From: Pseudomonas sp. MM213 | GTDB lineage: Bacteria > Pseudomonadota > Gammaproteobacteria > Pseudomonadales > Pseudomonadaceae | Assembly: GCF_020423045.1 (NCBI RefSeq) | Contig: NZ_CP081943.1 | Coordinates: 2,232,001 to 2,296,000 of the forward strand | Reading direction: 5' to 3' | Length of the DNA: 64,000 nucleotides | Shown here: positions 13,228 through 22,248 of the stretch, in pieces | Position numbering within the stretch: the stretch's first letter is position 1 | How the letters are laid out: each line of letters begins with the position of its first letter | Notes under the pieces: model-generated | Told to the model about the DNA's origin: nothing | What the model saw: the letters and a program-made list of their open reading frames with translations, nothing else | The model's database searches: none | Made by a program: the position numbers and the translations under genes

Positions 13228-14232
13228 TTAGTGCGTGTCAGCCAGTGCCGCCAACGGCTTCGGCGCGTAGAGCGCACTTTGGAACGCTGGCACGTATTCG
13301 TACTTCATCATTTTCCCCAGTTTCAAGGAGCGGATGTAGTTCGACAGGCTGCCGTCGCCCAGCGTGAGGGTTGCCGAATCCTCGTTTCTGCTGGAGCCGT
13401 GGCTGAGCTGGCGGGAAATCGCATACCCATAGGCTAACCGGCCTTGGTAATCGAGATTGGTGAAACTGCTGGTGACGATATCGACGTCACTGGACAGGTC
13501 GTCGAGCTTCTGCGCTTTGAAGGACACGTCCACTTTGCCCGTCTCGCTATCGGTAATGTCATAGACCACCGATTGGGCATCTTCTTTGCGGTCAATCCCC
13601 GTCAGCCATTTCGGCAGGTTGTAACCGACGACACCACGAACCCTCGCAAGCTCTGTATTGACCGGTAACTTGAGTACATAACCCCAGAAGTCTCCAGACA
13701 TCGACTGGCCAATCAGCGTAACCGGCCCCAGATTGGCTTTGCCCGGTTTGTTGGTGATGATCGACACCGCGACTTCGTTATAGGCGTCGTTATCGCAGTG
13801 CTCATAGGTGTAAGCGGTAAACGCAATCAGGCCTCGACCAGGCCAGATTTGCAGAGGCTGGACGGTTGCCAACACTTCGGGTGGCATCAGTGCCCGGAGC
13901 TTGTCCAGATCTGCCGTATAGACAGCCGTTACGCGACTGTTCTGGTAGTAAAAGTTTGGCGAGAACGATTCGAAGCCTATGTCGACCTTGTTCTTCTCCA
14001 ACCCTTTGAACCAACTCAAATCAACGCCCGGTACTTCTGCTGCAATCACCGACAAAGGAGGGTTGGAGCGAAAGCGATCGTACAAACCGCCCTTGACGAC
14101 GGGCACCTGGTGACCGGCGATATCGATCATGGCTGTGTCGGTCGGGCTGGGCATTTCAGGCATCCCCGCCAACGCATGGTTGGCGAACGTGTTGAACAGC
14201 AATCCTGTTAAAACGGCGCTTGCGAGTTTCAA
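13228..14232 (-). CDS. Acetoacetate decarboxylase-like protein with signal peptide
   Basis: A 334-aa protein. Residues 1-22 form a Sec signal peptide (MKLASAVLTGLLFNTFANHA, cleavage near ALAG), so it is periplasmic or secreted. The mature part resembles the acetoacetate decarboxylase superfamily: LRALMPPEV, AFTAYTYEHC, EVAVSI, and RGVVGYNLPKW with Lys208 where the Schiff-base lysine lies in true decarboxylases. Many superfamily members are not decarboxylases but act in aldol, cyclase or hydratase chemistry, so the reaction is uncertain. It has its own MerR-type promoter (14307-14337), matching that of the nearby hydrolase. Confidence 0.75.
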   Translation of the reverse strand: MKLASAVLTGLLFNTFANHALAGMPEMPSPTDTAMIDIAGHQVPVVKGGLYDRFRSNPPLSVIAAEVPGVDLSWFKGLEKNKVDIGFESFSPNFYYQNSRVTAVYTADLDKLRALMPPEVLATVQPLQIWPGRGLIAFTAYTYEHCDNDAYNEVAVSIITNKPGKANLGPVTLIGQSMSGDFWGYVLKLPVNTELARVRGVVGYNLPKWLTGIDRKEDAQSVVYDITDSETGKVDVSFKAQKLDDLSSDVDIVTSSFTNLDYQGRLAYGYAISRQLSHGSSRNEDSATLTLGDGSLSNYIRSLKLGKMMKYEYVPAFQSALYAPKPLAALADTH

Positions 14233-15935: not shown

Positions 15936-18758
15936 TCAAGCCACACGCTCAACCGTATCCGAACCGCTCTTCTTGCCTGCGCCACTCCAGCGCACCAAAA
16001 CGATTCGAACAACTTTGTTCCACACATACGCGACCGCGATGCCACCTACGACGGCAAAGACCACCGCGACCCCAGGCAGGTCAACAATATGCCGGGCCAG
16101 GGACTGGAATTGAAAATGCGTCAGATAAATAAACAGCGTTGACGATGCAACCAACGCAAGCCCCCGCGCGATGAGACCTGGCACCGGAATTGACTTGACC
16201 CAAATCAGAGAGAGAACTGCAGGGATGGCGATATCAACATAATCCTTCGCAACTTCCTGCGCCCCCGTCCCGAAGATTGCCAGAAGATCCTCCCCACCCA
16301 TCACAACCACAGCAACCGCACTGACGATCCACTTCTGGGCACTTGAATGAGCGTAGTGAACGGCCATTCCAAGCACCATGACTGCAAGATAATGCTGTGG
16401 CACGCGGTTATAGAGCGGTGACGCGTCAAACAGAAACGCACTGATCACAATGTCGGCCACGGCCAATGCACATGCCGCCAGAACAAGGCAGCGAAACGGG
16501 TTCGCAACAATGATGTTCCTGACGCGCTCGAACGACAGAACAAACCCGATGATGACAATCATCTGCAGGAGCACTTCAACATACCAGTAGGCAAAGCCGC
16601 CCATCATCGTCGGTGGAAACCAGTTGGAGATCAGCAACATCGTTTGCCAATGAACCTGGTCGAACAGTATCTGATTCAAAAGTGTGTAAAGGATGGTCGG
16701 CACCGCAATAAAGACCACTGACCTGACCAGCGTACGCACATTGCCGCGTTCATTGATGGCTTGAAACTGGAACCTCGCCAGACTGATACCCGAGATCAGA
16801 AACAATACCGTCGTCTCCCCGACCACTGACCAGGTCGAGAACAGATGAAGATGCCCAATGACAATCAGGATTATCGAGATAACACGTAAAAGGACAGGGA
16901 CTTCCATTGCCCTGATGGACAGCTTTGAACTGCTGGTTTTACCGGCCAACCCACACAGTTCATGTACCGGTGTCATTTCCCATTGATCGGGCAGATGGCC
17001 GATCAGTTCTTCAAGCACCATTGAGGCCTGAACGAACGACAGCGAATCCCCACCCAGCTCGACAAACGTCAGGTTTGCATCGATGCGCGGGACCTGGAGT
17101 ATTTCGGCCCAAGCCTGTGTCAGTTTTAACGCAAGCGGCGATAGATCCTGATCGGAATGGATGGACGCCGCCTCTGTGTTGGCAGCTATCCGCGGCAGCG
17201 CCCGCCTATCGATCTTTCCGTTCGGCGTCAGTGGAATCGCATCCAGAAAGACGAACAACGCCGGCACCATGTATTCCGGAAGCCGAGTGTTGAGGTGCTC
17301 ACGCAGTTCACCCGTTGAAACAGCGTTGATTGAAACGCAATAGGCCACCAGCCTGACCTGCGCGTTTTCATTGACGGCAAGCACAACGCACTGCTTGATC
17401 AGCGGATGTTTCGAAAGTGCGCCTTCGATTTCAGCCAGCTCAATACGATGTCCGCGAATCTTGACCTGACTATCGCCCCGCCCCAGAAAGCTGACTCTGC
17501 CATCTGAAAGATAAGTCCCAAGGTCGCCGGTTCTATAACAAATGTCGTTCTCGACATTGGTAAACGGATTCACCACAAACTTTTCCCGGGTTTGCGCGAT
17601 GTCCTCCCAGTAACCCTGCGCCAAGTAAGGGCTGCGTATCAGGATTTCTCCGACCTCACCTTCATGCACCAATTGACGGGTGTCATTCACGACCAGCAAT
17701 TGCGCGTTTTTAATGCCTCTACCCAGTGGAATCCTGGAATTGTCGGCTTCAGGGTCGACGTGGTGGTACGCCATTGCCTGAGGCGTTTCCGTCGTACCGT
17801 AAAAATTGACACTGACGGCATTGGGGGCGATCACGCACATTTGCTCGAACAGCGAAATGCCTAATGCATCGCCACCCCAGAACAAGTATCGAAGCGCGTT
17901 GAATCTTGCACCCTGAAGTGTTGCGCCGGTTCCTATCAGCCTTCCCAACGGCGGCGTCAGATGAATAATCGAAATGGCATTTTTTTGTATCCACGCCGCC
18001 AATGCCACAGGGTCTATGACGGTCGACTGTGCGGGAACGATAACTTTTGCGCCAATCGACAGCGGGGTAAATACATCCCGGTACACAGGGTCATGCCCCA
18101 GCCCGGACAGCAGCGAAAAGCAATCGTCTTTTGACAAGGAATGGCGCTGGGTATGCCACTCAATGAAATGCACCAACGGCGCATGAGTGGCCACGATGCC
18201 CTTCGGTTCGCCGGTGCTGCCCGATGTGAAGGTGATATAGGCCGGCTGTGCAGGGTCGACTTGCGGCAAGGCATGTTGGTGAAAGGCGAACTCACGCAAT
18301 GAATCGGCGGGGTCTTCCGCAATGCTGACGATCCGTGGAGCCGGACGCCCGGCCTCCAGGTGTTCGGAATCGAGATCGACGGTGGCCCCACCGCAAAGCA
18401 GGACAAAGGAAGGCTTTAGCATTCGGATGATTTGCCCGATGCGCGCAGGTGGATACGCAACGTCGGCAACGGTGAACGTCGACCCGGCACGCAAGGCGCC
18501 GAGCATTGCATAGACCAACCCCGCACAGCGATTGGAAACAATAACCACCCGGTCGGATTCGGTCGCGCCATTGACCTTCAGGAAGGACGCAATGCCATGG
18601 CTGATCTGTTCAAGCTGACGATAACTGCACGTCGCGTCGTGAGAGACGACCGCAATGGCGTCAGGCGAGCGCTGTGCCTGTTGCAAGAAGTCCATGAATA
18701 TCGGGCGATCGGCACAATACTCCAGATTAAGCGTCGGATTTGGGCGATGATCCTGCAT
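15936..18758 (-). CDS. Adenylation domain - carrier protein - acyltransferase-3 membrane fusion
   Basis: A 940-aa three-part protein. Residues 20-525 are an NRPS-type adenylation domain with A3 YITFTSGSTGEPKG (174-187), GTTET at 321, YRTGD at 408 and A10 PNGKIDR with Lys515. The stretch SGLGHDPVYRDVFTPLSIGA (218-237) is of the kind found in Lys2/aminoadipate-reductase adenylation domains. Residues 540-605 are a carrier domain with phosphopantetheine Ser572 in LGGDSL. Residues 618-930 have about ten membrane helices with the acyltransferase-3 (OafA/YrhL) pattern, including the GH pair 635-636. There is no condensation, reductase or thioesterase domain. Inferred role: activate an amino acid, hold it as a thioester and transfer it to a membrane or periplasmic acceptor, in the manner of DltA-DltC-DltB but in one chain. 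Confidence 0.85.
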   Translation of the reverse strand: MQDHRPNPTLNLEYCADRPIFMDFLQQAQRSPDAIAVVSHDATCSYRQLEQISHGIASFLKVNGATESDRVVIVSNRCAGLVYAMLGALRAGSTFTVADVAYPPARIGQIIRMLKPSFVLLCGGATVDLDSEHLEAGRPAPRIVSIAEDPADSLREFAFHQHALPQVDPAQPAYITFTSGSTGEPKGIVATHAPLVHFIEWHTQRHSLSKDDCFSLLSGLGHDPVYRDVFTPLSIGAKVIVPAQSTVIDPVALAAWIQKNAISIIHLTPPLGRLIGTGATLQGARFNALRYLFWGGDALGISLFEQMCVIAPNAVSVNFYGTTETPQAMAYHHVDPEADNSRIPLGRGIKNAQLLVVNDTRQLVHEGEVGEILIRSPYLAQGYWEDIAQTREKFVVNPFTNVENDICYRTGDLGTYLSDGRVSFLGRGDSQVKIRGHRIELAEIEGALSKHPLIKQCVVLAVNENAQVRLVAYCVSINAVSTGELREHLNTRLPEYMVPALFVFLDAIPLTPNGKIDRRALPRIAANTEAASIHSDQDLSPLALKLTQAWAEILQVPRIDANLTFVELGGDSLSFVQASMVLEELIGHLPDQWEMTPVHELCGLAGKTSSSKLSIRAMEVPVLLRVISIILIVIGHLHLFSTWSVVGETTVLFLISGISLARFQFQAINERGNVRTLVRSVVFIAVPTILYTLLNQILFDQVHWQTMLLISNWFPPTMMGGFAYWYVEVLLQMIVIIGFVLSFERVRNIIVANPFRCLVLAACALAVADIVISAFLFDASPLYNRVPQHYLAVMVLGMAVHYAHSSAQKWIVSAVAVVVMGGEDLLAIFGTGAQEVAKDYVDIAIPAVLSLIWVKSIPVPGLIARGLALVASSTLFIYLTHFQFQSLARHIVDLPGVAVVFAVVGGIAVAYVWNKVVRIVLVRWSGAGKKSGSDTVERVA

Positions 18759-18893: not shown

Positions 18894-20330
18894 ATGCGCC
18901 CTCTTCGCACCATCGCCCGCCCCTGGCTGCAATCGCTGCTGTTGCTGGGCAGCGTCCTGGCGGGCATGTCCAGTGCCGAGCCGCGGCCGGGGCACATGGT
19001 CTATCTGCGAGCGATTGATCCGAGCATCGAGCAAGACATTCGCTACGCCAGCCCCCACAACTTCACCGGTCACCCACTCGACGGTTATGCCGCCGCCGAA
19101 TGCCTGTTGACGCTGGACGCCGCCAAAGCGCTCGCCCGGGTACAAGCGTCGTTGCGCACGCAAGGCTACGGTTTGAAGGTGTTTGATTGTTATCGCCCGA
19201 ATCGGGCGGTGGCCGATATGGGCCGCTTTGCCACCGAACCGGGCGACCCACGCAAGGCCGAGTTCTACCCGCGTGTGGACAAGCAGGACTTCTGGCGCCT
19301 GGGGTATGTGGCGCGGGTGTCGAATCACTCCAGAGGCTCGACCGTGGACCTGACACTCACCGGGCCCAAGGCGTTGCCCGCCAGCACCTGGACGCCCTCG
19401 GCCACGCAGGTCGATTGCACCGCCCCCTACGATCAGCGCTGGCATGACGGCGCACTCGACATGGGCACCGGCTTCGATTGCTTCGATGAGCGGGCGCATA
19501 CCGCCAACCCGACGATCAATGCGACCGCGCAGGACAATCGCCAGCGGCTCGGCAGCGCCATGGCAAAAGAAGGCTTCTCCGGGTACTCGAAAGAATGGTG
19601 GCACTTCACTTATGGCAGCGCACAGGCACCGAACAACGTGATGGATTTCCCCATTACGCCGCTCGACGCCAATGCCGCACTCGACGCCAGCCATCAGCTG
19701 ATTGTGGTCACCACAAAAAACTGGGATGACCTGCAAGGCAGCGCCCAGCGCTATGAGCGCGACGGGAACAGCTTCCGCAAATATGGCGAGGCGTTTGCGG
19801 TGGTGGTCGGCAAAAACGGCATGGCCTGGGGCAAAGGGTTGGACAACGTTGAGCCAGGTGCAGAACCCGTCAAACACGAAGGCGATGGAAAAGCGCCGGC
19901 CGGGATTTTCACGCTGGGAACAGCGTTCGGTTACGAGACCAGCGCCGACACGAAACTGCCCTACCTCGCACTGACAGCGACCACCGAATGCGTGGACGAC
20001 AGCCATTCCGAACACTACAACACCCTGGTCGACGGCGCGGCGATGCCCAAGGACTGGAACAGCTCAGAACGCATGCGCAGCGAAGAAGGCTATCGCAAAG
20101 GCATTGTCATCGAGCACAACACACCAGCGTCCCCCGCCTCGGGCTCGTGCATCTTTTTCCACATCTGGCGTAGCCCGACATCGCCGACGGCGGGTTGCAC
20201 GGCCATGGATCAGGCGGACATCAGCCGATTGTTCGACTGGCTCGATCCGCAACAGTCTCCCCTGCTGGTGCAAATGCCCGAGGCGCAATACGAGCACGTT
20301 CGCGAGCGCTGGAACCTGCCGGAACGGTGA
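18894..20330 (+). CDS. VanX-like D-Ala-D-Ala dipeptidase fused to an L,D-transpeptidase-like domain
   Basis: A 478-aa exported protein. Residues 1-28 form a signal peptide ending near MSSAEP. Residues 35-245 are an M15D peptidase of VanX/DdpX type: FDCYRPNRA with Arg101, SNHSRGSTVD giving zinc ligands His145 and Asp152, and KEWWHFTY giving Glu234 and His237. Residues 265-470 resemble a YkuD/YafK-like L,D-transpeptidase, with GDGKAPAGIF at 331-339 and IFFHIW then SPTAGCTAM with His423 and Cys435. Both active sites look intact. It should act on peptidoglycan peptides in the periplasm: cleaving D-Ala-D-Ala with one half, making or cutting L,D bonds with the other. Divergent from the adenylation fusion gene. 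Confidence 0.82.
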   Translation: MRPLRTIARPWLQSLLLLGSVLAGMSSAEPRPGHMVYLRAIDPSIEQDIRYASPHNFTGHPLDGYAAAECLLTLDAAKALARVQASLRTQGYGLKVFDCYRPNRAVADMGRFATEPGDPRKAEFYPRVDKQDFWRLGYVARVSNHSRGSTVDLTLTGPKALPASTWTPSATQVDCTAPYDQRWHDGALDMGTGFDCFDERAHTANPTINATAQDNRQRLGSAMAKEGFSGYSKEWWHFTYGSAQAPNNVMDFPITPLDANAALDASHQLIVVTTKNWDDLQGSAQRYERDGNSFRKYGEAFAVVVGKNGMAWGKGLDNVEPGAEPVKHEGDGKAPAGIFTLGTAFGYETSADTKLPYLALTATTECVDDSHSEHYNTLVDGAAMPKDWNSSERMRSEEGYRKGIVIEHNTPASPASGSCIFFHIWRSPTSPTAGCTAMDQADISRLFDWLDPQQSPLLVQMPEAQYEHVRERWNLPER

Positions 20331-20813: not shown

Positions 20814-21188
20814 TCACGACTCATGGTAGTAGTACAGTTTGTTGATGATGACCCAGCGATCATCGATCTTCAGTAACGACAGGTAATCGGTAAACCTCAT
20901 CCCCGCATAATCATCGATGATTTTTACGGCGGCGGCGTCGCCTGTTATGTCCAGGTCAATCACTTCCCAAAAAGGCTTCACCTCTTTTGCCGCCGGGCCT
21001 TCGGTTTTGATCGCGTCGACAAACTCATCAAGGGACAGCCATTCAAGCGCTTTTTGGAAGTGACCGATGATGCGACAAGACGGATGAAATGCTTTTCGCA
21101 ACGAGGCTTCGTCAGCGAAGACCATACCCTCGACATAAAGTTTGACGGCTTCTTTGACAGACTCTTTTTCCGCGGAATCAGTTGTCAT
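20814..21188 (-). CDS. NTF2-like / lumazine-binding-type protein
   Basis: A 124-aa protein with the cone-shaped NTF2-like fold pattern: an N-terminal helix VKEAVKLYVEGMVFADEASL, the loop FHPSCRIIGHF, then strands LDITGDAAAVKIIDDYAG and YLSLLKIDDRWVIINKLYYY. It most resembles the putative lumazine-binding (SnoaL-like) family. Members may be small enzymes (isomerases, cyclases) or binding proteins; none of that can be decided here. Its start overlaps the end of the sterol-desaturase gene by 11 bp, so the two are made together. Confidence 0.75.
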   Translation of the reverse strand: MTTDSAEKESVKEAVKLYVEGMVFADEASLRKAFHPSCRIIGHFQKALEWLSLDEFVDAIKTEGPAAKEVKPFWEVIDLDITGDAAAVKIIDDYAGMRFTDYLSLLKIDDRWVIINKLYYYHES

Positions 21189-22248
21189 GTCTCACCTCCA
21201 CTTCTGCTAACGCATTCTGGATTGTTCGCAAGGGCGCCCGCGAACGATCAGGTCGTTTGGTCGAACGGACCTTGCGGGCGATGTCCACAAACGGCGTGAC
21301 GATCAGGCTGTAAACCGTCAGGTAACGCTCAGAATCCTGATCACCGGTGCCGAACCGCAGGGCTTCGGGTTTCGACGTGGTGACGTAGAGCGTGCCGAAC
21401 ATCCAGTCCCACAGTGACAGGTTGATGCTGAAGTTCTTGTTGAAATGGTGCGGTGCGTCGCTGTGATGAATCTGGTGCTGGGCCGGGCTGTTCAGCACAT
21501 GTTCGAACACCGGGCCGAACGACAGCCAGACATGACTGTGACGCAGGTTTCCCACCAGCCCGTTGAGGATGAACACCAGCCAGGTTACGCCGAACAAAGT
21601 ATAGCGGCTGATCTCGCCGCCGCAGGCGTACCAGAAGACGCCGGCATAGGCGCCGATGCCGATGATCGTCGAGAGTTTTTCGACAATCTTTTCCACGAAA
21701 TGAACCCGGCTGGCGGTCGCTGGAACCAGCACCGGCGCCGAATGGTGGACCTTGTGGAATGCCCACAGCCATTTGGAATGGAAGGCGCGGTGCGCCCAGT
21801 AGGCCATGAAGTCTTTCACCAGGAAAACGCCCAGCCCGTAGAGCAAGGACAGTGAAAGATTCTGCTCCACTTGCACCCGTGCGCCCCACAGGTTGGTGAA
21901 AAAGGCGATGTAGTCTCCGGAGCGCAGGACGAGCGGGTCCACCAGACCGACAATCGGCAACACCAACGCCACTTTCAGAATCGCCCGCACGAAGTAGTAG
22001 CGGTAATCGAGCAACGCCGAACGATGGAAATACACCCGACGCCCGCCGATGAACTGCCCGAACGACTGCGCGTCGGTGAGACCTCGATGTTTCCTGAACC
22101 GGAACAGGGCGTAAGCGATGCTGTAAGACGAGAACAGAAACAGTACACCCATGCGCCCGTTCAGATCGAAAAGGCCCAGGAACTGGCGAGTGACGGGCTC
22201 AATCACCCACTCGGTCAGGCCGTTAAAAAGCAGCACAAGGGCATCCAC
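21178..22248 (-). CDS. Sterol desaturase / fatty acid hydroxylase superfamily membrane protein
   Basis: A 356-aa integral membrane di-iron oxygenase. The histidine boxes are AHRAFH (His153, His157), FHKVHH (His165, His168, His169) and QHQIHHSDAPHH (His258-His268), the set that binds two irons. Hydrophobic helices lie at about 32-50, 88-105, 130-150 and 195-235. Family members hydroxylate or desaturate lipids or sterols with oxygen. First gene of an operon with the NTF2-like and GNAT genes; the substrate could be a membrane lipid or an alkyl chain, which is not visible from sequence. Confidence 0.85.
   Translation of the reverse strand: MDALVLLFNGLTEWVIEPVTRQFLGLFDLNGRMGVLFLFSSYSIAYALFRFRKHRGLTDAQSFGQFIGGRRVYFHRSALLDYRYYFVRAILKVALVLPIVGLVDPLVLRSGDYIAFFTNLWGARVQVEQNLSLSLLYGLGVFLVKDFMAYWAHRAFHSKWLWAFHKVHHSAPVLVPATASRVHFVEKIVEKLSTIIGIGAYAGVFWYACGGEISRYTLFGVTWLVFILNGLVGNLRHSHVWLSFGPVFEHVLNSPAQHQIHHSDAPHHFNKNFSINLSLWDWMFGTLYVTTSKPEALRFGTGDQDSERYLTVYSLIVTPFVDIARKVRSTKRPDRSRAPLRTIQNALAEVEVRHDN

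Follow-up and report, generated by a model that had tools for sequence, protein, structure and literature searches.

The synthetases Pls (epsilon-poly-lysine) and PosA (delta-poly-ornithine) are one-chain adenylation-carrier-membrane proteins that make polymers, their membrane part having condensation-like domains. The Dlt system consists of separate proteins acting on D-alanine, with an MBOAT-type DltB and DltD. Passages of PMC3783018 describe it as adenylation (DltA), a carrier (DltC) and a multi-pass membrane acyltransferase (DltB), and present the Alm system of Vibrio cholerae as a Gram-negative ligase-carrier-acyltransferase relay that brings glycine onto lipopolysaccharide. For the acyltransferase-3 (AT3) acetyltransferases of the OafA/OafB/OatA type, which usually stand alone or carry SGNH or racemase domains, acetyl-coenzyme A (acetyl-CoA) is the likely donor according to parts of PMC9558356 and PMC9833829. 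Here we describe a gene of Pseudomonas sp. MM213, lying in a stretch of 64,000 nucleotides (NZ_CP081943.1, positions 2,232,001 to 2,296,000; hereafter the window), that encodes an adenylation (A) domain, a peptidyl carrier (T) and an AT3 domain in one chain. With a probability of about 0.6, judged from sequence and structural models, this A-T-AT3 protein is a self-contained aminoacyl transferase, in which the A domain loads the carrier and the carrier feeds the membrane AT3 domain.

In the proposed mechanism, the cytoplasmic A domain would activate a carboxylic amino acid with adenosine triphosphate and attach it, as a thioester, to the phosphopantetheine arm of the carrier next to it. The carrier would then present this thioester to the AT3 domain in the membrane, and from there the acyl group would pass to an acceptor located at the inner membrane or beyond it. 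Sequence and models show the domains with their key residues intact, a fold of AT3/HGSNAT type, a single conserved pocket and a single clade that unites the carrier-fused AT3 domains; the loading, the transfer straight from carrier to AT3, the acceptor and the membrane side are inferred. By analogy the protein would work like the Dlt and Alm relays, yet it is a member of neither: two DltA models match its A domain (246.4 and 224.3 bits) well under their cut-offs (476 and 559.85), Pfam finds AT3 and not MBOAT, and Alm is made of separate proteins with AlmG, an LPLAT, whereas here one chain ends in AT3. With the OafA/OafB/OatA type it shares PF01757 and the R-X10-H motif of transmembrane helix 1 (TMH1), but it is carrier-fused and the RXXR motif is absent.

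Architecture of the fused protein

The open reading frame (ORF) fills its interval exactly, from start to stop codon, and its minus-strand placement is absent from an earlier sequence-only reading of this DNA (Table 1). The domain order that had been proposed there, together with the lack of any condensation, reductase or thioesterase part, agrees with Pfam, which at E ≤0.001 matches the 940-aa protein to four families only, in the order A, carrier, AT3, and to none of those three kinds. The two AMP-binding families, the carrier with the Ser572 that the reading had singled out, and the pocket Asp and Lys are all present. Conservation was counted in 158 aligned family members (the Pseudomonas-type set, including the query and a condensation-A-T-AT3, or C-A-T-AT3, protein of locus L041), in which rows derived from loci and from protein databases overlap, so that the family counts contain near-copies. 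A phosphopantetheinyl transferase gene (PF01648) is located elsewhere in the genome, and the GC content of the A-T-AT3 gene is 54.6% vs. 59.1% for the window. The protein is real and uncommon, and it is probably functional.

Table 1. Positions in the window of the A-T-AT3 gene, its domains and its key residues.
Feature	Position	Strand	Evidence
Whole gene, 940 aa, A-T-AT3	15936..18758	-	ORF, ATG/TGA, GGAG upstream of the start codon
Adenylation core, residues 26-384	17607..18683	-	PF00501 AMP-binding, 224.6 bits
GHDPVYRDVF segment, residues 221-230; pocket residues D223, P224, R227	18069..18098	-	sequence
Adenylation C-terminal subdomain, residues 443-515, K515	17214..17432	-	PF13193 AMP-binding_C, 47.3 bits
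Peptidyl carrier domain, residues 545-584	17007..17126	-	PP-binding, 28.3 bits (cut-off 20.8)
Ser572, expected phosphopantetheine site, within LGGDSLS	17043..17045	-	S in 158/158
Acyltransferase-3 domain, residues 623-912	16023..16892	-	PF01757 Acyl_transf_3, 32.7 bits (cut-off 31)
Arg625 of TMH1 R-X10-H	16884..16886	-	R in 158/158
His636 of TMH1 R-X10-H	16851..16853	-	H in 158/158
Arg679, basic residue close to the usual TMH3 RXXR site	16722..16724	-	K/R in 153/158
Y878-L-T-H881, towards the C terminus of the AT3 domain	16116..16127	-	Y878 and H881 in 158/158

Identity of the membrane domain

According to passages of PMC9833829, the R-X10-H of TMH1 is absolutely conserved in AT3 proteins and the RXXR at TMH3 highly conserved. 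The former is intact here and identical throughout the aligned family (Table 1), and PF01757 passes its cut-off also in the genome search (36.4 bits), in which five other places are listed on the single 6.75-Mb contig, four of them above the cut-off. The predicted structure has a membrane acyltransferase fold of AT3/HGSNAT type; identity to HGSNAT, which differs in being a human enzyme solved with acetyl-CoA, is 11% in the structural alignment. A viral structure library gave no match at 0.001, and no MBOAT rows were noticed among the fold matches, an absence that proves nothing. The low AT3 sequence score would suit a C-terminal part that is a transporter or an unrelated membrane domain, a reading which the earlier note had itself named as one that would overturn its proposal; fold comparison gave no sign of a transporter, on which ground we rejected it, and we consider this alternative extremely unlikely. 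By predicted fold and by motif, the C-terminal part belongs to AT3, in a branch that is divergent and fused to a carrier, carrying the conserved His and Arg expected from the sequence alone.

Distribution and phylogeny of the family

A scan of genome contigs gave 39 loci, 38 of which cover the C-terminal part. Near-full-length relatives are encoded at 37 of the 39 (L038 is a partial contig, and L045 matches in the A domain only, at 28%), and the fusion pointed out in the sequence-only reading is therefore not a product of chance. Pseudomonas proteins are the nearest named relatives. With a T+AT3 profile, members were found in 13/199 genomes of the genus (E 1e-20) and 9/398 of the phylum (E 1e-8), the source genome included in both, and in 5/385 genomes of the class and 7/149 of the family of genome G581 (E 1e-15), all of these being lower bounds because only the best few first-look candidates per genome were scored.

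Protein searches added AMP-ligase-T-AT3 proteins, among which the names Streptomyces, Lentzea, Rhizobium, Sphingomonas and, from the cyanobacteria, Plectolyngbya appear; of 120 such proteins 116 passed, and four locus rows bring the AMP-ligase-type set to 120. Phenylobacterium and Sandaracinobacteroides were found to have C-A-T-AT3 proteins. A second branch was reached through the C-A-T-AT3 protein of L041, 34% identical to the 940-aa protein; its 120 rows are alphaproteobacterial where named, most carrying no name, and an HHxxxDG-like condensation motif occurs in 86 of the 89 long forms. The R and H of R-X10-H stand at their columns in 102 and 101 of 106 second-branch rows in a short alignment and in 120/120 in the full-length one. 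Among plasmids, a Rhizobium member matches 222 records, 79 of them over at least 80% of its length; for the 940-aa protein, 80% coverage is reached in 12 records, with the top match on a Pseudorhodobacter plasmid (30.5%).

In a quick tree of 118 AT3 domains, whose root is only drawn and whose carrier-free rows come only from the window's genus and order, the 58 carrier-fused domains (10, 18 and 30 rows, hand-picked or random from the sets) lie on one side of a branch with a Shimodaira-Hasegawa-like approximate likelihood ratio test (SH-aLRT) value of 99, and the Pseudomonas and second-branch nonribosomal peptide synthetase (NRPS) types join at 92. On this comparison of sequences, the 940-aa protein represents one of several branches within a broad family of AT3 domains fused to carriers. 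Two AMP-ligase-T-AT3 proteins (P0151 and P0167) have an additional C-terminal 2-hydroxyacid dehydrogenase domain, a hint that the substrate of the AMP-ligase branch may be a 2-hydroxy or keto acid. On one contig (L054/L055) the carrier and AT3 matches fall in adjoining open frames of 669 and 342 aa, pointing either to two separate genes at this place or to a break in the reading.

Adenylation pocket and substrate

The A domain had been called Lys2-like from its GHDPVYRDVF segment, and TIGR03443 (L-aminoadipate-semialdehyde dehydrogenase, Lys2 type) is indeed the best NCBIfam match and the closest A-domain family model, with 363.8 bits followed by 342.5 for the general amino-acid adenylation model (cut-off 317.4). 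The TIGR03443 cut-off is 1030.1 and no reductase family is found, which sets the protein apart from the Lys2-type alpha-aminoadipate reductases (AAR). By motif alignment the pocket reads DPRHFGFQAK. It is common to 157/158 family members, the remaining one being a fragment in which this region is missing, and to 97/120 second-branch proteins, in which D, R, H, G, Q and K are invariant (120/120). Lys2 activates a side-chain carboxylate, and its code, which we take to be DPRHFVMRA although no paper giving it was found, coincides with the pocket at 6/9 positions. The pocket Arg could thus hold the far alpha-carboxylate, and from this comes a rather doubtful guess at the substrate: a Lys2-like amino-dicarboxylic acid (e.g., alpha-aminoadipate) activated at the side-chain carboxylate, so that its alpha-amino acid head would stay free. 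By motif alignment, D223 and K515 correspond to positions 235 and 517, where passages of PMC11253843 set out the roles of the pocket Asp (amino group) and Lys.

In the relevant passages of PMC2823734, published in 2010, the bacterial sequences grouping with fungal Lys2-type enzymes, beside the AARs of its tree, are all from pseudomonads and consist of an A domain followed by PF01757; they are held likely not to be lysine enzymes, with the function left unassigned. The architecture has therefore been in print for Pseudomonas since 2010, and the family is widespread. Among the matches listed by our search of the open literature, outside which most subscription journals lie, no paper tests such a protein, and the main text of the 2022 review PMC9558356 contains neither 'adenylation' nor 'AMP-binding'.

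Genomic context and acceptor

When 18 neighbouring ORFs of the window were sought in the 39 loci, a shared block appeared only in the nearest relative, L007; an ABC (ATP-binding cassette)-type ATPase ORF, matched at 26-39% in 7 loci, and another ORF, matched at 24% in one locus, were judged generic. De novo ORF clustering of 39 regions, the window included, recovered the family gene itself in 36 and gave no partner at a fixed place that would name the acceptor, and an operon reading was rejected accordingly; the best recurrent set (10 regions, at scattered distances) is of FecR/FecI/TonB type by eye only. In 22 wider regions (L041, L060, L062-L066, L133-L143 and the four rhizobial plasmid regions L056-L059), where the greedy choice of ORFs overlooked the family genes of L064 and L136 as well as the second one of L041, one block is common to L057, L062 and L063, and some isolated ORFs to L056/L066/L142, L066/L142 and L060/L142, no partner being seen in more loci than these groups. 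The four annotated rhizobial plasmid regions have the family gene amid unrelated genes. A gene that works by itself in such varied surroundings would agree with an enzyme that needs no partner and uses a widespread acceptor, without indicating which. An envelope glycan or lipid, put forward in the sequence-only reading, is a candidate to which the neighbouring genes give no clue.

The AT3 domain might alternatively release the aminoacyl group onto a membrane lipid, a polyamine or a small acceptor, and the outcome would then be a secreted product and not envelope decoration. The second branch places the A-T-AT3 core behind a condensation domain, as in peptide-making enzymes, the source names of relatives include 'antibiotic biosynthesis protein', and no glycan genes are conserved beside the family gene; however, no exporter or tailoring gene is conserved alongside it in the Pseudomonas loci either, and parts of PMC9558356 portray AT3 proteins chiefly as sugar acylators, extracytoplasmic above all, although antibiotics are also covered. 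We regard a small-molecule product as unlikely.

Other observations concern the surroundings of family genes. In Sandaracinobacteroides sayramensis the two kinds, AMP-ligase-T-AT3 and C-A-T-AT3, stand in tandem between GatA- and GatB-like ORFs (by eye), after which come genes for an epimerase, a DegT aminotransferase and a flavin adenine dinucleotide oxidoreductase. Locus L041 (3862-10730) has an AMP-ligase-T-AT3 and C-A-T-AT3 tandem, with nucleotide-sugar-type genes farther downstream. A promoter-like word pair, TGGCG-N13-TGCAC, occurs upstream of family genes in 23/37 regions (L007-L044) and not in the window's own upstream region, and nothing is concluded from it. In the window, the divergent neighbour (18894-20330, plus strand) encodes a VanX-like M15 dipeptidase (residues 35-156) joined to a YkuD-type L,D-transpeptidase-like domain (289-453); a fatty-acid hydroxylase gene with a weak OlsE-type match overlaps a lumazine-binding-like gene (20814-22248, minus strand); and an ORF at 13228-14232 (minus strand) has a sub-threshold acetoacetate-decarboxylase match and, by eye, a signal-like N-terminus.

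Donor of the acyl group

RXXR, counted as the motif containing R74 and searched without alignment in sets of AT3 domains, is present in 23/27 and 15/20 strong carrier-free domains (set 1, 27 of 30 carrier-free loci; set 2, 20 hand-chosen places), in none of 157 Pseudomonas-type fused domains and in 1/106 of the second-branch NRPS type (strong carrier-free vs. NRPS-type fused, Fisher 6e-39, kinship ignored); a script found no carrier motif in 1/158 and 14/120 rows of the two types, respectively. By alignment, the first RXXR column has a basic residue in 64/65 carrier-free vs. 1/383 fused domains.

Several points weigh against the self-contained transferase. Weak carrier-free PF01757 proteins (18 of the 20 carrier-free places below 64 bits, two starting past TMH1 being omitted) have RXXR in only 3/18 cases without alignment, or 5/18 by another count; the Fisher value is 0.0009 against the NRPS-type fused domains, kinship again ignored, and 0.40 against the AMP-ligase-type fused domains, 35/120 of which do have the motif (alignment-free). 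The basic residue at 679 is one column off and possibly a shifted remnant, so that a shifted helix could mimic RXXR loss. Moreover, the PF01757 match in Table 1 is only 1.7 bits over its cut-off, no match reached E ≤0.001 when Foldseek was used by itself (best 0.091), and the limits of the tree and the missing fixed partner count on the same side. Since 15/18 of the weak carrier-free proteins are also without it (alignment-free), RXXR was not taken as AT3-defining, and its loss was downgraded from a proof of carrier feeding to a hint, drawn from sequence comparison.

The same evidence bears on whether the AT3 domain uses acetyl- or acyl-CoA, like ordinary AT3 proteins, to acylate either the amino acid on the carrier or some unrelated acceptor, in which case the fusion would only co-localise the activities. 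The intact R-X10-H and the RXXR kept by AMP-ligase-type members speak for a CoA donor; the near-complete absence of RXXR in both NRPS-type sets, and a carrier and AT3 that remain joined across one clade, speak against it, and we consider it quite improbable. Feeding of the AT3 domain by its own carrier remains our preferred reading.

Conclusions

More tentatively, and with the odds somewhat against the full picture, an old AT3 branch may have swapped CoA for a fused carrier and become the membrane-embedded release domain of miniature NRPSs, in which different front ends (amino-acid A, condensation plus A, AMP-ligase) would feed the same membrane end, and in the Pseudomonas branch an amino-dicarboxylic acid, linked through its side chain, would be exported to an acceptor in the periplasm. 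If carrier feeding is true, the A-T-AT3 protein would be a second, one-protein answer to the problem that Dlt and Alm solve, namely how activated amino acids get to the membrane or across it, and CoA would not be obligatory for AT3 domains. The family would then offer a compact model for the delivery of a tethered thioester to an acyltransferase in the membrane, as well as a new route to envelope or secreted aminoacyl products that the neighbouring genes leave hidden.
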